Positions 12,801 to 55,300 of a stretch of 64,000 nucleotides of DNA are shown here, in pieces. The position numbers and the translations under genes were made by a program. Position 1 is the first letter of the stretch. Every line of letters begins with the position of its first letter. Source of the DNA: Watersipora subatra (lineage: Eukaryota > Bryozoa > Gymnolaemata > Cheilostomatida > Watersiporidae); contig NC_088711.1 of NCBI RefSeq assembly GCF_963576615.1, positions 16,229,869 through 16,293,868 on the forward strand. The letters are read 5' to 3'. A model generated the notes under the pieces. The model worked only from the letters and a program-made list of their open reading frames with translations, was not told where the DNA came from and did not search any database.

Positions 12801-14532
12801 ACAAACTACAGTTAGTTCAAATTATTTTCCTTGCAAGAGAAAATGTGAATAAACCAATGGTTTTCTTATGTTCATCACATTTTTTATGACTTCAATTCCT
12901 AGCCATTTGAATCTCCTTGAATATGTTGTCGGTCTCTGTTGACTTATTGCCTTTTTGCTGCATATTGGCCTAAAAATCTTTCTACTCACTGTTAGGTTAT
13001 AATGCTCCTTACAATTGATATCTGTATAACCAGATTTGAAGAATCCTAAATCCAACAAAAACAAGACACCAGGATTTTGCGACAGTGAGAGAGAAGGGCT
13101 CACTCAGCTACTAGATGAAGGGTTCCTCGACACCTTTAGGCTTCTTTACCCAAAAAAGGAACACGCCTACAGTTTCTGGAGTTACATGGGAAATGCGAGA
13201 GAGAAAAATGTTGGATGGTGAGCTACTTGAGCTAGTTAAGGCTAGTGTTTGGTTAGTTAAGGCTAGTGTTTGGTTAGTTAAGGCTAGTGTTTGGTTAGTT
13301 AAGGCTAGTGTTTGGTTAGTTAAGGCTAGTGTTTGGTTAGTTAAGGCTAGTGTTTGGTTAGTTAAGGCTAGTGTTTGGTTAGTTAAGGCTAGTGTTTGGT
13401 TAGTTAAGGCTAGTGAGGCTAGTGTTTTTGTCTGAAAGCTATTTATATAATCCGCTGTTGGTACACTCAGGCCGGAATGTAGATTTCTGTTTAAAGCTTT
13501 TTAATTTTGTGGTACTCTACCTGCTCAGAGATGGGATCTAAAGATTAACATTCTATATCATAGCATCTCAGTTAAAATTGTAACCAGTGAATGTCGATGT
13601 TAGTTGGGGCTTGAAAACTGTAGTACACAAGAATGTGCATTAAGCCGAGTTTTAATTCTTTTCATTTAGTTTCTGTAACTTCCATTTAATGACTTTTGGA
13701 AACATTAGCAATGAGTTTCAAGATTAGAAATGAAACATGCAATTTAAAATAAATCGAGGTGGAACTGACAAAGTCAGTGTAGAGCTTGAAATCAATGAAC
13801 CGATTTTGCAAAATAGAAAATGTTTAAAAAAAAGCCTTGATCACGTTTTTCCTTTATGGTCAAATTTGTGGCGAGGTAAAATCTTATTTTAGCAAATATT
13901 GAATGCAATAAAATGTTGAAACTTGAGTAATTCTGATATATATTTCACTCAAACAATGTAAAAATAACTTACAAGTCCATTTAGTTGATATTTTTACTAA
14001 CATAGTACTGTCAGACATTCCTACAAAGATTCTGCTAGCACTCCGTCAGCTTGGTTGTTACAGCTCTTCGATGCGTAAATTATAGGCTGTGTCACATGAT
14101 TTGCATTTTACACCAATTTTACAAATAATGTTCTTGAGAATCATCCCTACTACAATGTGTCATACAAAGCACTCATCCCACGATCAGCATAGCCTGTATT
14201 CCAAGTTGATATCTTAACAGCATTTTTCATCAGTAAACTGCAGTGATCGAGCAATTTTGGTTAAAAAAAACTGGGGTGATGCAGTGATAAGATTTTGCTA
14301 TGCTGAAAAGTGAAATGATCACTTTGAAATTCAAAATAAAATAATAATTTGTTAAAACATGAACACGTTGTTAATGTTATCGTCTTGTTGATGTACACAC
14401 CCATTTGCTTTCAGGAGACTGGATTATTTCCTCATTTCAAATAGATTGGAGGATAAACTGTGCGACAGTTTTATGAGAACAGATGTGAAAGGCAGTGATC
14501 ACTGTCCTGTGGGACTTCTAATGGCTCTCTAA
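9812..14532 (+). CDS. APEX1: AP endonuclease 1 (base excision repair)
   Basis: Complete seven-exon model, 307 residues: 9812-9832, 10302-10481, 11523-11724, 12097-12168, 12252-12398, 13034-13217 and 14415-14532 (TAA). Phases agree at all six junctions. APEX1 cuts the DNA backbone 5' of abasic sites in the nucleus; the protein starts MPKRKAT, a basic nuclear-import-like leader. The exonuclease III/endonuclease fold is complete: [14 protein letters not shown] (metal-binding Glu), SGYSGVG, VTVYVPNSGRG (catalytic Tyr), [12 protein letters not shown] (Asp and Asn), [15 protein letters not shown] and GSDHCP (catalytic Asp-His). The Asp of human NVDG is Asn here, as in E. coli ExoIII, so this is not a lost residue. 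The N-terminal extension is shorter and diverged. Intron 6 holds a 21-bp minisatellite. It converges with CNEP1R1. Confidence 0.97.
13232..13428. repeat. 21-bp minisatellite, about nine copies
   Basis: The unit GTTAAGGCTAGTGTTTGGTTA is repeated head to tail with almost no divergence, starting 15 bases after the APEX1 exon 6 donor. Because 21 is a multiple of three it leaves reading frames open, but it is intronic. Confidence 0.95.
14030..14215. repeat. Dispersed repeat of about 185 bp, copy 1
   Basis: Similar along its whole length to 15686-15870 in the same orientation. Shared blocks include GCGTAAATTATAGGCTGTG, TCACATGATTTGCAT and AATAATGTTCTTGAGAA, ending near CATAGCCTGTAT. It lies in APEX1 intron 6. 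No tRNA boxes or inverted ends are obvious, so the family is unknown. Confidence 0.8.
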
Positions 14533-37504: not shown

Positions 37505-39120
<1,616 letters not shown>

Positions 39121-42300: not shown

Positions 42301-44760
42301 CCACGCCCCGCTAAACATCCAATATGATTCAGAAGCTACAGTGTGAAGAATGCTATGAGAAACATAGCCCCTTTTACTGACTTGGCTGTGGAAAACCCCC
42401 CTGAAGTAGCAAATTCGCTGACAGTGTCTCATGGTCTGAAAACCCCTCCCTAAAACGTGATTTTGGGCCGAGCCAAATGGGACTTTTGAGGGGAGTATTA
42501 ACCCTGGGGGTTGAATAAGTAATTGGAGCTAACTACTTACGCTATAAATTGCAGTCATCCCGTTTCAAACTCAAATAGTAGCATAACTCTGCGAATTGCA
42601 TTGGACTTTATCTACCCAACCAATTGAGCGGTAGGTGCCTACCGTCATTCACTGTTCCGTACAGGAAATATGTAAGGTTTGTCAGTGTTTGCGCATTCCT
42701 TGAAAATAAGCCCATCGTGGTAGTAAAACCTCCACTTTTGGTGGCAGCAGTGAAGTAACTTGAAACAGAATTGTGACCCTTTCCTAGCATGCCAACAATT
42801 CATGTTGCCAATGAAGTGTTAGAACTTACATGTCCTTGCATAGGTAATGCATTTACACTTCCATTGAAAATTCATGTTCATCTGAAACGGTTTCAATTTC
42901 GTATTAAAAATGATTGACGACGACTTTTGTAATCATTCAGGATGTCAGCGTCGCTTTTTGTGAAAGATTAAATCTTTTTCAAAAAAGTTTTGTTGAAGAA
43001 TGACTGACTGTTTTAAAGAAAAACTTGTTCGCTCAATTGCAGTATATTCGCTAATGATAGCCTTTTGTTGAATAATTCACTGAGCTTATGTTGTTCACTC
43101 CTGTGTTGTTACTGGTAACATAATACTTAAAAACCTGTAAATAGTCAGGAACGCAGCATTGAATTTTAAAGGTTAATAGGTAGGTTACTAACTACCTATT
43201 CGACCCTAGTTACATTTAGACACTTATTACCATGAGCTCTTCAAAAAAGTTGGTGCTAGAACTCTAGCTTGCTACTTGTCAGAATTAATTTTTTTGTCAT
43301 TTTTACACTTTTTGCTTTTGATTCCTTCGTATCTTCGGTTGCGAACTGTCTCATTGAAGCTTTGCTCGGGGAGCTAGTTGGCATATCAACTTATTAATCA
43401 TCAAAGACTGCACTTTATCATATGTATTTGTCGACATCTTCCTACTGGTATAGTAAGGTCACCTACAAAATCCTGCCTAGTTACTTCAAAGTGTTCAAAC
43501 AAATTATGGACAAATAGAATGCACAATGAGTAAGGAGGAACAGTTTCTACAGCGTGATCACGATTCATGACTTTACAACTCTCTAGGCACCATCTCTGAT
43601 GCATGCATTTTCAACCGTGACAGAAGATAAACTTCACTTGTAGTAGCTCAGATCTCCCACATACTTAAGACCACTTAGCTTTATTGCTTTTTGGTCTAAT
43701 CAGCTCAATGCTATGTAGTGAAAATTTTTTGTGAGGTCAATAACAAAACTGCCTTAATCCATATGAACCATTGCACTATAATGAGTTTTGGACAGCAAGA
43801 ATGTAGCCCTTCTGACTCTTCTGATCAGTATTAACTGCCAGCTATGATAACTATGCGTTAGACATTGTTGGCTGTGTGCTTCAGTCTAAGATTATTTCAA
43901 TGTTATAGTTACATCTAAGCTGGTGTTTGTTGGTTTATCATTTTCTAAAACCGGCTTCTAGTTTTGAAGACGAAATTAAGTGAATAGGTAAATGCTTTTT
44001 AGCTTTTTTTTAGTATTCTGGCTATGCATGAGGCTATTTAGTTGCGAGTAGCGGTGATTTGAATAATATCACCACCAGATGTTTTCAGATTCCACAAGTG
44101 AACCACCAGAAAGTTTCCTTTATTTTATTTTGTGAACAAAGGGGTTACTGAGGTAACCAATAGCATTCTTAGGTTCAGGAAGACATTTGTGAAGTATTTC
44201 CAAAAATAGGCACAACGCTGATACTCACTCTTGGCGTATCATAAAATTTTGAATGAGGCTTCTTCGCTGATAAATTTTAACAGCGCTTAGTTTTTCCCTG
44301 AACTACTTCCTCTGTAGTCGTGTTTTACATCAGTTCTGTGAAAACTTTTGTGTTTATATTCACACCTATTCTTCATTCTTGATTTGTTTACAATTGAAAT
44401 ACTGATGAAGTTCAGCTTTATGGTTTGTTGTGTTTGAATATTAGCTCGACAATAATTTGATAGGAATAGCACTTCTATAAAAAACAATCACATTAGAAAT
44501 TTTGTCTCCTATTCATCTTTCACAAGGTTATTAGTAGGTCAAATGTCTGTAAAAAGGATTTGTTGGCACCAAATGCATAAACACCGTATACCGAAACAAG
44601 TTTATGGTTTTATATAACGTTTGAGGCAATGCATATCTTGCTCAATTAAGTGATGGTCATAAACAACTGCAAGTATATGGGGCTTCGACATTTACAGATT
44701 ATACCTATTACATGACCCATATTAAGCTATGATACGGTTACAGGTCTCTAAAATTATACC
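39340..44760. other. Long gene-free stretch
   Basis: Except for the foldback element at 40029 I see no supported gene. A more G+C-rich patch at about 42170-42530 has many C and G runs (ACACCCCCTAAACACTGGG, GAAAACCCCCCTGAAG, AACCCTGGGGGTTG) but no frame. A short ATG-started frame at 41082 (MADWKIVSLRTPRILS) lacks a partner exon. Confidence 0.35.
40029..40128. mobile_element. 100-bp foldback element
   Basis: ACCAATGATATACAGCCCCC at 40029 is inverted at the right end as GGGGGCTGTATATCATTGGT (ends 40128), a 20-bp perfect match. A related fragment, GGGGCTGTATATCATTG, lies at 33825, so the family is dispersed. It is too short to encode anything. Confidence 0.75.
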
Positions 44761-45451
44761 ATGTCAGCACGGTCAACAAGTAGAAGCAAATCTACGAAGG
44801 AAGCTGCGGCAATGTCAGGTCTTATCAAAGGGAAACACATTCCTCTCACTATAAAACTTGTTGACACCGATGAAGTATTCACTTTGAAGAATGTTTCGTC
44901 TTCTACCACAATTAAAGAATTAAAAAGTTATTTAGAGTTCTGTGTTGGAATACCAGCCAATCTTCAACGACTTCATTACCTTGACGAGGGTACGTAGCTT
45001 CAGCCTTACACATTTAGAATAGCTGTTCGAGGTCTTTTCTGTGTTGATTTGGTGATTTTTTAGTCATAAACATGTGATGCCCAGAATTTGCATTTAGAAA
45101 ACCCTGCAAGTGGCTGGTTCTCAGGAACCTGAGTCAGTTTTAAAAACAAATATTTTTGCTGACCTGCCAGAAGGCATGGAGCATATGCATGGGAAGTTTG
45201 GATGAAATCGGGCTAAAGCAAGATAACTCACACCGTTCACGCAGACTAACAGACAGACATACGCTATGACAAAATTTGATTTGTTATTACAAATTGGCCG
45301 AGTAATCTGTTATGGTTTTTGAAATTATTTATGCAAGATTTAGATATTTAGATTTTAGATCTCTTTCCTGCACTAGAGAAGTATAGTGCAATTTCTGTCA
45401 GATCAACTCCTCATTCTTATTTTGTATATTATTGTATTGCTTATTAGTGGT

Positions 45452-45522
<71 letters not shown>

Positions 45523-46682
45523 TCATGTTACAGACAGTACTGTTTCGGCTATTGAAGCCTCATCAGTGCAGCTCAGAGCAGCTCAGAGCTTAGGCAAGGG
45601 ACACAAATCCCATTACCAATGAGAGTTGACTTCCTGCCACGAAACAACTAAGTTGCCTCGCAGACTTTAAGAAAATCAATGTGCTGGCACCAGAGTGCTC
45701 AAATCACAAAAGTGATGAGCTTTGCACAAAGGCTAATAGTGCCGCACCTCTCACAGAGTGCTCAACCAAACCGAAGTAAGGGAGCATATACTCATGCTAC
45801 AGACAGTACTGTTTCGGCTATTGAAGCCTCATCAGTGCAGCTCAGAGCTTAGGCAAGGGACACAAATCCCATTACCAATGAGAGTTGACTTCCTGCCACG
45901 AAACAACTAAGTTGCCTCGCAGACTTTAAGAAAATCAATGTGCTGGCACCAGAGTGCTCAAATCACAAAAGTGATGAGCTTTGCACAAAGGCTAATAGTG
46001 CCGCACCTCTCACAGAGTGCTCAACCAAACCGAAGTAAGGGAGCATATACTCATGCTACAGACAGTACTGTTTCGGCTATTGAAGCCTCATCAGTGCAGC
46101 TCAGAGCTTAGGCAAGGGACACAAATCCCATTACCAATGAGAGTTGACTTCCTGCCACGAAACAACTAAGTTGCCTCGCAGACTTTAAGAAAATCAATGT
46201 GCTGGCACCAGAGTGCTCAAATCACAAAAGTGATGAGCTTTGCACAAAGGCTAATAGTGCCGCACCTCTTACAGAGTGCTCAACCAAACCGAAGTAAGGG
46301 AGCATATACTCATGCTACAGACAGTACTGTTTCGGCTATTGAAGCCTCATCAGTGCAGCTCAGAGCTTAGGCAAGGGACACAAATCCCATTACCAATGAG
46401 AGTTGACTTCCTGCCACGAAACAACTAAGTTGCCTCGCAGACTTTAAGAAAATCAATGTGCTGGCACCAGAGTGCTCAAATCACAAAAGTGATGAGCTTT
46501 GCACAAAGGCTAATAGTGCCGCACCTCTCATGAGTATATATATATATATATACTCATGCTACAGACAGTACTGTTTCGGCTATTGAAGCCTCATCAGTGC
46601 AGCTCAGAGCTTTGGCAAGGGACACAAATCCCATTACCAATAAGAGTTGACTTCCTGCCATGAAACAACCAGGTTGCCTCGC

Positions 46683-46772
<90 letters not shown>

Positions 46773-47016
46773 GTATATATATAGCAGGCATTATATATAA
46801 TATGTATATAATATAATATATCTAATATATATTATATATATAATATACACACCTATATATATAAATATATATAGGTGTGTACCCACCCATTTTGCTGGTT
46901 TCTATCGGGGTTGCCTCTACTCACTATTATTGATCATTACACAAGTCCAGCTCACATGAAAGTGGGAGTGTCATAAAAGAGGCTGTATTGGTTTACATGG
47001 TACCAATAGCAGGCGT

Positions 47017-47081
<65 letters not shown>

Positions 47082-50000
47082 CGTTTAGGGCGCATGAACT
47101 GGCAACAGTCAACGGCCATGTTCCAAAATGGAGCTGGGATCCCATTTAAGACAGTTTGTATAAACAATGATTGTATTGCTAGCAGTCCTTACACCTGGTC
47201 AGCAACTACAGTCGTACTGGCTAAGCTTTTTCCATAAATCACAGTTGTGTCTAGGCAAGAGAATCTCTTGATCAGTTTTGAACTTCAACGGTTCTGGTGG
47301 CATCTTATTTTACCATGGTCATCTTTAAGATTCTTCCAAATCTGTAAAGATCTATGCTATTTCCACCCTTTGCTCATTGAATATGACAGAAGCTGTATTC
47401 CTTGCTATTGCTGTATTACCTCTTCAGCAAATTACTTGTTAAAGGGGAGTTACAAGAGCATACAGATATTCGGTCGAATGACATCGTAGCTGGCGGTCAA
47501 CTCCACATGTCCATATGGCATACCTGGGTTAAACTAATCAGCGCTGTAGTCAACAATAACATCAGCGAGGTAAGCTCAGATATGTGGTTCAATCCTTGGA
47601 CAGCTGTCGATAGTTGTTTCTCTATAATGAACTAGTCAATTATATTAATATGTTTCTATGAAATTAGTATATATCTATGGCATCGATGAAGATTTTTTGT
47701 TTTCAAATTAACAGGCAACGATAGTATTATGTTTGGGTGAAAAGAGTGATATAGGATGGGTAATTTAGGTTCCTCAGAGTTTCATTCAAACGAACAAAAA
47801 ACACTCAGTATTTGTTCAAATTGTGAATAAACTTCTTATCATAAAATCTTTTTACTATTACTTTTTTTGCTCTCTTTCTAATTTCTGTATTACAATAGTT
47901 GCTTTGTGCATACACATGAACATCTGCAAGTTTTTGCAGCTTTTGTTCTCAGAGCCTGCGCAAACAATGGTTTTATCATTAAAAGTGATACAAATGCATA
48001 CATACACGTATGTGAACTCAGACTATGCCAATTGCATTTTCTGTTTTACTAGTGTAGATGATACGGCTGTCTTTGTTTGTAATAATCAGCTAGATCAATT
48101 ACAATCTTGTTTGTGAACTCAGATTTTACTGGTTGACTTTTGAGCCTTACCAGTAAGTTGCTAATAATCAGATATTACACCGCTCTTGTTGGTTAGAGGG
48201 AGTTTATTACTAAAACTATCTTATTTTTCTCATATACTACCTTAGTAGTTGTATGTTTAGGTGCTAAAGATGGGGGTCACACAGGATTCGACATACAGAA
48301 CACCCAATTCTAAACACATGAACTCCAAAGGAGTACAGACATGGCTAGCGGAGAGGGCATTTGTGGCACTTTTTGTGGCGTGTCACAGAGGCCATGTGAA
48401 ACTCGTCCAAACATTAGTAGACTCCGGTAAGTTAGCTATCTAGCTAGTAGCAAACTAGCTAGATGCTTGTTATGTTTTGAATGTTCATTTGCAACTGTTA
48501 TGTCAGTCTTGTTAGATTAGCATTAATTCTTTTACTGATCACGCTATACGCCTGCATGTGAAGAAAATGTCTACAAGCTGTCAAGGCGCAGTCTATGTCA
48601 TTATCGGTCAGTAGTTCGCTCATTTCACGTCTTAATGCTTTATCAAAACTATGGTAAAACTCATGATAGACTGTGATCTACAGGAGCTGATGTGAACATG
48701 AAGACAACACTGGGTCGCACTCCATTACATGTTTCTGCTGCACAGAACAGAGGCTCTATAGTCGATATTTTACTAAACAATGGTAAATATGCTAGCTCAA
48801 GTTACTACAGCTCATGTCATCTAAATTCTATCAGATTTGTCTATTCATAACATGAGCAGACAATTTCTTATTGACAAGTAAAACGTAAACTAGTGCATGT
48901 TTCAAGCTACAGCTCAGTAAATCTACTAGCAAAATAACACTCATCAGTTAGTTATATTAGAGTTGTCTGCCCTACCTATTTTATTCAGTTTTTCTTATCT
49001 TATAGCTAGTTATGTAGTAGCTACAACCCAGTATAATTGAAGGTTTTACTCCATTTCTAGGAGCGGATGTCAATGAAGTTGATAAAATGGGTGACACAGC
49101 TCTAGCTATTGCGGAGCGTTTTGGTTACAAAGATGGTGCAAGACACCTCTTCCTGTTCAGGTGGCAAGTGCGAGCAGCCCAAGCGGAGAAAGTTCCAGAC
49201 GCACCATTGTATTATCACCAACAGTGCGATACAGCAAATCCTATGTGGCTTTCAGGAACTCAGGTGTGACAAGCTCAAACCTCCTTTGTCGCAACTTTTG
49301 GCGCATGTTATATTGAAATGTTTGCTAAGATTTAGGTAGCTTGCAGTAAACATCTACTTGTTATTTTTATCAAACTGTACTATGCAATACAAATTGAAAG
49401 TAACACTTGATAATTTTATCAATTACCATATATGTTAAATATGCTAGCTTTTCAGACTTTTATATCATTTTTCTAAAAAATGAGCTTATTCTCTGTAGAA
49501 CCCCTCATAGAAATGATCCAGCTCTGTTCATGTAATGTTCTCAAGTGATGCAGCTTTTCAGTTATAGAGTGTTAGGTTTATAATAATCATTGACAACCCT
49601 TATAAAAGGACTCCTCTCTCCCTCTGATTGTCAGTAAAAAATACTTGTTATTTCTATTCATCGTTTCAGGGTCAGCTGTACTACGCTGCTAATGAGCATT
49701 TTGTAGATGAGTTTGCTGGAACTGGTCTCAGCGCTGTTCGCTCTTTACGCAAACCTACAGATATCCCTTCAGGTATCTTTTCACTTCTTTGTAGTTTATC
49801 AGCATGTACTACTTTTGTACTTGCTGACATTTTCGGATGATTGGGATAAGTCTGTCTTGCTGTACGCTGTTGTTCAGCGACAGGATTAAATCTATATACT
49901 TACACATTGCTCAGGAAATTACAGATAACTTTATTAGTTGCAAATAAATCGCGTAAAACTTCTCTCGCGTATCTGTCATAGTGGCTCTTTGAATTGTATC

Positions 50001-52387: not shown

Positions 52388-55300
52388 ATGGGATACGATG
52401 ACGCAATTATTGTGCTACAGATGCTGTGTGCAATGACGCTGACGAGAGGTAATGCAGTCGATATATTCAGTCGACTTTAGCTCATGAGCATGGTTGTGCT
52501 TCTTTTCTGCTCATTTTGTTAACAAACTGAAAAACCTTTTTGAGTAAAAATGTAACATTTTAGTCTAAAACTGTATAACGATGTATTACAGGGTCTGTAA
52601 CTATGCTATCTATAGAGACAGTGTATATGTGTATTACAAGGTCTGTAACTATGCTATCTACAGAGACAGTGTATGTGTGTATTACAGGGTCTGTAACTAT
52701 GCTATCTGCAGAGACAGTGTACATGTGTATTACAGGGTCTGTAACTATGCTATCTGCAGAGACAGTGTATATGTGTATTACAGGGTCTGTAACTATGCTA
52801 TCTATAGAGACAGTGTATATGTGTATTACAGGGTCTGTAACTATGCTATCTACAGAGACAGTGTATGTGTGTATTACAGGGTCTGCAATTATGCTATCTG
52901 CAGAGACAGTGTATATGTGTATTACAGGGTCTGTAACTATGCTATCTGCAGAGACAGTGTACATGTGTATTACAGGGTCTGTAACTATGCTATCTGCAGA
53001 GACAGTGTATATGTGTATTACAGGGTCTGTAACTATGCTATCTATAGAGACAGTGTATATGTGTATTACAGGGTCTGTAACTATGCTATCTATAGAGACA
53101 GTGTATATGTGCATTACATTGTCTGTAACTATGCCATCTGCAGAGACAGTGAATATGTGTATTACAGGGTCTGTAACTATGCTGTCTGCAGAGACAGTGA
53201 GTGTATATGAATCAAACTCAATAACTCTTTATTGTCAAATTGAGCCATTTGACTACCATAAGTGCCACAGGTGGTACCGACAGTCAATTGACGGCTCCAT
53301 AAAGGTAGGTACTATTTGTTTGAATTTAAGCTTTTATGGAGGTAGTTAACTATTTTATATCAAAGTAAAATTTCAAGTTTGAAGAAGGCCGGGCTTTTTA
53401 AATCTTGTGATCATTAAAAAATGATGTTGTATATTGTAAGCGATGCTTTAGTCGTATTCGCAACAACGCTGAGTAAGTACCAAGATAAAAGATGACTCAC
53501 CTTTTTAGTAGCTAGTACGCATCCTCGTATAAGACTTGTATAGTTTCTTACATTTGTAGTCAGTCATAACATTGACACCATGGGAACACAACTCTCATGT
53601 TTGGTTACTTCACATTTATGAAAGCTTTGAACTAGTATATAGTAAGTACAGTTTGGGCTAAACACATGTACAATGTTTTAACATTAAAAAACATTCCAAC
53701 GTTTAAACACTATTATTCTAATGTTTTCAGTTCCAGCGAAAATTGACCAAAATTTAAACCAACATAAGTATTAGGTCATGTGTTTTAATTGGTTAAGCAA
53801 ACTACCATATATGGTAAACTCAGACCTATATTTGATGAGACTTGTGCAAATGTCGACGATACCAAACTGTATATGCATTCTTGATTGTTCAATTAGATTA
53901 AGACATCTATTATTTTACACAGGTAGTAGCTGAGGGCTCCTATCTTTATGAACCAACAGCTCCAATCCACGTCAATGACTTAGTCAACCCACAGAATTTA
54001 TCTCTAAATCATGACAACATTTTTTCTATCCCCTGTCAACAATCTTACGAGACAACTAGCCCAGCCCCTACGCCTAACGTAACAGCGCGGAGCAATAAAA
54101 GTATGACCACTCCATCTCTCTCAACCAACTCAATCTTATCAATGACTTCAACCGAGACCTCCACTTCTACACTGCCAACACCGATGACTCACTTATCAGC
54201 TGCTACACAAGTGACAAGAGACCCTATGAGGGTGGAAAAGTACTATCCTTCTAGACACGAGACATACTACATGTTGACTATTGCTAAACTAAACAAGGGG
54301 GATGAAGGTAGATATTTCTGTCAGTACTACTGCGAAGAGTGCGACTCAAGAAAATCTAAGCTAATATTTACAGGTAAGTTGTATCGTTTTCTTGTGGTAA
54401 GTTACACTATCTTTATAAAAAAACACAGTTTATCATTGAGTAGAGGTTGTTGGTCAAAAGTAAGACACAGGAGTTATCCTCTATTGTATGCGAGCAATCC
54501 CTTAAATATCGAGTACTATTGAATGCCCGGCGTTGCCCGGGTAATAAAAGTCTGCAAAGAAAACTTATTTTTATTCAACATACATGTATAACAAAAGTTA
54601 CCATTCTAACTTTTAAACTTTGAATCATGAGGAAATTGTTTGTACATGTCAAATAAATTGAGAAACAAAATAAAACAACTATAAAAGTGTTTAAATGTAA
54701 ACTAATTAGCAAGTAATTACTAAACTAAGTCTGTTTTGCTACGATTACAATAAAAGATGATTTGGTAATAATACAATTAATACGAGCTAAGAAAACAAAA
54801 CAAAAATCCTTAATAGGTTGAATTAATAATAACGATTCGTTGCATAGAGGTGTGTGTGTCTATAAAAAAAGGTTACTGTTCTAGCGGAAGATATTCATCA
54901 AAACATCGAATACTACGATACTGGTACCCCTCTATACTGGCACCTCTCAATACTGTTACCAATGAGATATCAAACTGTTTTTGTGTGAGCGAACAACGAG
55001 AAAATGTAGTGGCTATACCTACTCAAGATTGTCCGTTTGAAAAGTATTTGCCTTTACCGATTTAGAAATTTAACCTTACGAAAACCGGGAAACAGAAGTT
55101 CACAAAAAGCTAAAAAAGCACTGTGTTTCATAGAGTTATAGAGTTTCAATTGATAACTCTATGAACTCTATCGTGTTTCCAAGAGTTCATAGTTTCGATT
55201 ATTACATCATTTAGGAGTACATAGTAAAAGCTATGAATAGTAAGATCATTTGTGGACTCCTTGATAGACCACAGTATTACAAACTCGCAGTTGCAATTGT

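Follow-up and report, generated by a model that had tools for sequence, protein, structure and literature searches.

A 259-bp hammerhead retrozyme of Watersipora subatra that seems to carry the start signal of Penelope-like elements

A tandem hammerhead repeat in the bryozoan Watersipora subatra is probably a metazoan non-LTR retrozyme that is moved in trans by Penelope-like elements (PLEs), to judge from its sequence. Its insertions have a fixed 3' end, a variable 5' end and a (TA)n flank, and the element and the PLEs of the same genome have hairpins in common. With less confidence, we favour the further reading that the retrozyme is a circular-RNA parasite of PLEs, which would amount to rolling-circle target-primed reverse transcription in an animal. 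The sequence evidence is strong for a PLE start signal in the retrozyme and weaker for copying round a circle.

The window, which is the whole 64-kb stretch of DNA that was analysed, contains a 259-bp period at 45517-46687 (TRF, 95% matches, score 2056). The sequence-only reading had described five units of about 259 bp; the tandem period was found again, but the units form one array and a separate partial copy instead. The 3'-most unit of the array measures 269 bp and carries a 10-bp duplication, and copy B is separated from the array by its own short (TA)n. The GC content of the unit is 46.7%, below the 50% that marks metazoan non-LTR retrozymes. The parts of the locus are as follows.

45455..45521, no strand: (TA)n on the 3' side of array A, the target (TRF)
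45517..45532, minus strand: 3' tail beyond the cleavage site, an AU-rich site and putative reverse-transcription start, at the (TA)n junction
45517..46528, minus strand: retrozyme array A, 3.81 tandem 259-bp units, 5' truncated at about unit position 50
46548..46690, minus strand: copy B, separate and 5'-truncated, 0.49 unit with its own 3' tail
46687..46873, no strand: (TA)n-rich tract on the 5' side of copy B (TRF)

The array is antisense to an ANKRD60-like gene and lies between its ubiquitin-like exon, recognised by Pfam, and its ankyrin-like exons, recognised by eye, which supports the position first proposed, in an intron of ANKRD60.

44752..44997, plus strand: ubiquitin-like exon of the ANKRD60-like host gene (Pfam)
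48677..48848, plus strand: ankyrin-repeat-like exon of the host gene (by eye)
49021-49269: second ankyrin-like exon of the host gene (by eye, without a Pfam match)

The window also holds an actin gene of at least two exons (37547-39120, plus strand), a perfect 21-bp repeat (13233-13415) and a 48-bp tandem repeat of 12.9 copies that is open in three frames (52582-53199). Elsewhere in the genome, eleven near full-length HSP70 genes are clustered at C3:7902744-8875277.

Five hammerhead cores are found on the minus strand, with cleavage sites spaced by 244, 259, 259 and 269.

45511..45583, minus strand: hammerhead 1, cleavage at 45532/45533, stem I weakened by one change
45780..45852, minus strand: hammerhead 2, cleavage at 45801/45802
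46039..46111, minus strand: hammerhead 3, cleavage at 46060/46061
46298..46370, minus strand: hammerhead 4, cleavage at 46319/46320
46542..46614, minus strand: hammerhead 5, in copy B, cleavage at 46563/46564

A strict descriptor (stem I of at least 5 contiguous bp, CTGANGA, stem II of at least 3 bp, GAAA, stem III of at least 2 bp, UH) matches four of the five cores and nothing else in the 64 kb, and gave 2 matches in total across 200 dinucleotide shuffles of the window. The core at 45566 fails because a G to A change at unit position 5 shortens the contiguous part of stem I to 4 pairs. With regard to covariance models, Rfam at its gathering score has no match in the window, while under relaxed limits Hammerhead_HH9 matches all five cores at 18.2-22.6 bits (gathering 52; E 0.0094-0.25). 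The sequence-only reading had taken scores below threshold for all five motifs as refuting its claim, and all five do score below it. Notwithstanding these scores, the exact ribozyme core pattern occurs at 1,374 places in the genome and the reversed pattern at none, which shows a real repeated feature. In the predicted fold of the ribozyme region, CACUG pairs with CAGU in place of stem III, with ordinary stability (z -1.0). A minus-strand hammerhead with a minimal stem III, and a monomer of 259 nt, are both supported by the sequence, as had been suggested; the hammerhead is of type I.

The search for further arrays of the unit that had been proposed found them dispersed on many contigs. The retrozyme is thus a dispersed multi-copy element, in a genome that also holds hammerhead-bearing PLEs. 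A DNA search of the genome gave 107 matching pieces in the best 40 of 1,377 candidates. Two samples were drawn: the 40 best-scoring loci, the window's own among them, and the 20 loci that come first along C1. The latter is less biased; it was selected by an exact core ending in GTC, which excludes copies without the ribozyme end and leaves the tail past GTC unforced. The 66 arrays fetched measure 0.13-5.36 units, with short copies in the C1 sample (0.15-1.99 units); among the matches listed, one run has seven cores that follow one another every 259 bp. At one locus (L070), a minisatellite comes after the retrozyme tail; its units, of about 30 bp, each repeat part of stem III, the cleavage site and the tail. 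At least 120 IMG/VR stretches match a combined pattern, which is taken as chance.

The label of satellite that the repeat had first been given does not fit what appears to be a dispersed retroelement, occurring in short arrays with a common 3' end. Satellite DNA in the sense of long arrays at few loci, grown by DNA expansion, is contradicted by the dispersed copies with that common end. The units are tandem and head-to-tail, as they would be if unequal exchange within the intron had expanded an ordinary satellite, or a repeat linked to the gene, with the hammerhead a relic, but the many contigs, short arrays, common 3' end and (TA)n flank make such an origin extremely improbable.

On the ribozyme strand, most copies end ...GUC^UGUAGCAUGAGUAUA and are followed by (TA)n or AT-rich DNA. 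The usual 3' end adjoins hairpin A, the GCUC...UUGAGCACU hairpin, which is one of two in the unit.

45757..45785, minus strand: hairpin A (GCUC...UU-GAGC-ACU), adjoining the AU-rich site; repeated at 46016-46044 and 46275-46303
45694..45720, minus strand: hairpin B; repeated at 45953-45979, 46212-46238 and 46471-46497

End and flank statistics were taken from 66 arrays at 58 loci, with the duplicates L012 and L033 dropped. The 3' end is identical to the unit through position 16 past the cleavage site in 46 arrays and stops at position 3-14 in another 16, through a base change or an earlier joining; the four exceptions are L011 (83), L031 (256), and L028- and L057 (both 259). As the unit itself reads UAUAU at this place, the real junction possibly lies a few bases earlier. 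The tail is exact to position 16 in 39 of 46 arrays of the best-scoring set and in 7 of 20 of the C1 sample, where base changes are frequent and a tail is recognisable by eye in all 20. In 50 of the 66 arrays, the TA/AT dinucleotide content of the next 20 bases of the 3' flank reaches at least 0.7, against 0.26% of the 20-mers of the window; 11 of the 20 C1-sample copies have such a flank. In L011 and its duplicate L012, the exceptional end at position 83 coincides with the beginning of hairpin B and is followed by poly-A instead of (TA)n.

The 5' ends vary, with an excess at unit positions 1-16 (18 of 66 arrays, 4.1 expected). In twelve of the 66 arrays, the 5' end falls within unit positions 65-80, close to hairpin B but short of it, which may reflect a preference in stopping or joining. 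At some 5' junctions (L015, L020, L030, L042-, L043-), the 5' end of the element is itself copied in short inverted form. Such copies of at least 8 nt occur in 5 of 48 arrays, against 0-4 in 20 reshufflings; they look like snap-back or templated filling, a resemblance that is suggestive only.

PLEs were located from ORFs beside retrozyme loci, and 20 PLE 3' ends were fetched of 105 places, 14 from PLE1 and 6 from a class of 53-55%. In all 20 copies, a CUGANGA...GAAAC hammerhead core follows the ORF. The copies terminate in AT/TA-rich DNA immediately before either of two hairpins. Among the 13 non-tandem PLE1 copies, 9 end 4-10 nt before hairpin 1 and 4 end 1-5 nt before hairpin 2, the remaining PLE1 locus (L076) being a tandem junction; the six ends of the 53-55% class split 2 and 4 between the hairpin 1 and hairpin 2 sites (by eye). 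These PLEs show a hammerhead-bearing pseudo-LTR, tandem copies and an optional 3' tail, and at two loci (L086, L090) a PLE end and a retrozyme stand tail-to-tail inside one (TA)n.

The putative PLE identity of the proposed partner rests on motifs and anatomy. The predicted model of the protein P0001, 99% identical to the PLE1 ORF piece, matches only reverse transcriptase structures among the best matches listed, with telomerase tied with other reverse transcriptases. Pfam RVT_1 scores 13.4 bits on the PLE protein, below the cut-off, and Pfam recognises GIY-YIG in 3 of the 35 homologues aligned (best E 0.00036), not in P0001, and at one place above cut-off in a search of the genome. None of the 120 homologues listed is named Penelope, and the PLE1 piece and its profile gave no match to the sequences of solved structures.

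The sequence-only reading had recognised nothing in the unit outside the ribozyme; part of this region turns out to be a hairpin pair common to the PLEs of the same genome. Each hairpin consists of GCUC, an inner stem, a UU bulge (UC in one), GAGC and ACU. PLE1 and PLE-B share one order of parts, namely hammerhead, AU-rich site, hairpin 1, AU-rich site, hairpin 2 and a putative start codon. In the retrozyme, the GAGCACU of hairpin B comes 63 nt after that of hairpin A, and the corresponding distance is 61 nt in PLE1 and 57 nt in PLE-B; hairpin B differs from PLE hairpin 2 in having no AU-rich site before it.

None of 20,000 mononucleotide shuffles of the retrozyme contains two such hairpins, as the element does, and 2 contain one. 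The pattern GCTCN{7,20}TTGAGCACTCT has 2,932 matches in the genome, including the retrozyme's own, against 2 for the reversed control; by eye, about 40 of 100 among the matches listed have other loop types. Pairing was counted by script on hairpin classes grouped by eye, MAFFT having left the 5' arms unaligned. Across 12 loop classes, 33 inner-stem base pairs are kept with changed bases between families, while shuffles give 8.0+-3.2 and none of 10,000 reaches 33. Folded one at a time, the hairpins take the shape described above, and their energies are modest (z -0.8 to -2.9). Not every hairpin place follows a hammerhead: among 15 that lie outside the main type of retrozyme (assigned by eye), 9 have a hammerhead core or its remnant upstream and 2 are divergent retrozymes; a sense-strand hammerhead was not found at the other 4, one of which (L238) also lacks the inner stem. 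More hammerhead-plus-hairpin families, with other stem II sequences, occur at L227, L235 and L240 and are apparently additional PLE families. Given the common plan in both kinds of element, and ends that lie beside the hairpins, the retrozyme seems to carry the PLE start signal.

Insertion into (TA)n is not by itself diagnostic of PLEs, since a LINE of this genome, a second retroelement using (TA)n, also ends there (...GGGGTGAGGAAACAATTTT(TA)n). This LINE has a zinc-binding reverse transcriptase tail (zf-RVT, below cut-off) and, we presume, a restriction-like endonuclease motif.

L039:2243-3505, minus strand; L061:373-1635, plus strand; L032, L037 and others: LINE copies

Its 3' ends lie in or beside (TA)n and adjoin many of the fetched retrozyme loci, and 8 of 9 run into TA-rich DNA by eye (the exception is L032), so that such a LINE, with its restriction-like endonuclease, might be thought to move the retrozyme in place of PLEs. 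However, none of the nine ends has a hammerhead core or hairpin in the preceding 350 nt, and the sense-strand hairpin matches in 12 LINE-bearing loci belong to retrozyme units, with one other, antisense match at L028. A LINE as mover is accordingly regarded as improbable, and PLEs are preferred.

With regard to the template, a monomer cut by the ribozyme would have the tail at its 5' end and could not give the observed 3' end, which leaves a circle or an uncut multimer as the probable template. Units of one array diverge by 0.41%, and units of different arrays by 1.41%. Among 65 cases of a variant in an array, a count that still includes the duplicated loci L012 and L033, the variant is present in every covering unit in 27 (permutation mean 1.1, maximum 6 in 1000), and 8 of these 27 are private to one array; of the remaining cases, 2 are in some units only (L015, L017) and 36 in one unit. 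That all units of an array can have a variant in common suggests that each array was copied round a single 259-nt circle. Strong pairing is predicted for such a circle (-92.3 kcal/mol, against -71.8+-4.7 in shuffles).

Array-fixed variants could also stem from the multimeric RNA of an already uniform array. The same retrozyme and PLE machinery would then use an uncut multimeric transcript, and tandem units would be copied from tandem units. Uncut RNA likewise supplies a tail across the cleavage site, a PLE inserts RNA in vitro without hammerhead cleavage (PMC11167929), and the two variants confined to some units of their array agree with such a template. Nevertheless, the 8 private all-unit variants would need a uniform parent array each time, and some of the private variants are in arrays of only 1.3-1.7 units (L043, L044, L045). 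The 5' ends also pile up at whole turns (18/66), an effect that (TA)n microhomology could produce as well. On this evidence an uncut template is rather unlikely, and the circle is the reading we prefer.

From published retrozymes, we infer that a minus-strand transcript would cut itself at the hammerheads into 259-nt monomers, which would be ligated into circles. The common signal, together with the constant 3' ends, suggests that the PLE protein would recognise the GCUC...UUGAGCACU hairpin and nick a (TA)n tract, and that the DNA end would serve as primer for reverse transcription, which would begin at the AU-rich bases immediately 5' of hairpin A. Synthesis would cross the former cleavage site, make one or several turns of the circle and stop at a variable place; the product left in (TA)n would be a monomer or an array that is truncated at its 5' end. 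After cutting and circularisation, the whole unit would lie upstream of the start signal, which would allow a PLE enzyme primed from (TA)n to circle and lay down tandem copies.

The kinship with animal retrozymes and PLEs that had been suggested at the outset finds support in the sequence. As far as the available text of PMC7229834 (Cervera and de la Pena 2020) goes, that study defines metazoan non-LTR retrozymes and shows their circles; the type I hammerhead, a unit of about 170-400 nt, GC below 50%, tandem copies at many places and PLEs in the same genome are common ground with the Watersipora element. According to its accessible part, retrozymes may be moved by PLEs or by other non-LTR elements, PLEs being a strong candidate by shared traits; retrozymes and PLEs are tied together there by co-occurrence, tandem habit and the hammerhead. 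The Watersipora element differs in that its 3' end is fixed next to a hairpin that PLEs also have, and in that its main target is (TA)n. In the portions available, PMC8969392 states that retrozymes may depend on PLEs and PMC7761336 presents the circle model of retrozymes. The plant LTR retrozymes, as described in the same part of PMC7229834, are likewise non-autonomous, with a hammerhead and a circular RNA (a circle that is conjectural for the Watersipora unit), but they have type III hammerheads, LTRs and circles of 600-800 nt, none of which is seen here.

Hammerhead PLEs resemble the retrozyme in their hammerhead, tandem and 5'-truncated copies, AT-rich targets and optional 3' tail (PMC11167929 and, in its available part, PMC3846280, which describes the optional tail and AT-rich targets). 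A PLE of Anolis starts reverse transcription internally in vitro, after the cutting of AT-rich DNA, from two closely spaced sites at a stem loop (PMC11167929), a further likeness. In contrast to PLEs, the retrozyme measures 259 nt, has no protein gene and has a fuller hammerhead, with a two-bp stem III and a stem I internal loop. Among the titles and abstract openings searched, no report was found of a bryozoan retrozyme or of a hairpin common to retrozymes and PLEs. The 259-bp element fits the known metazoan retrozymes, and the evidence on its movement is apparently new within the literature searched.

With regard to the enzyme that moves animal retrozymes, the argument for PLEs in the studies consulted is co-occurrence. 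A shared RNA signal with compensatory changes, at the place where the insertions of both elements begin, makes the proposal testable with named RNA parts. If the proposal is true, a start signal would be defined across several PLE families of one genome, and the two-ended 'tail' of PLEs would be explained. The tandem form of the retrozyme would also have its reason, in circles that are copied repeatedly.
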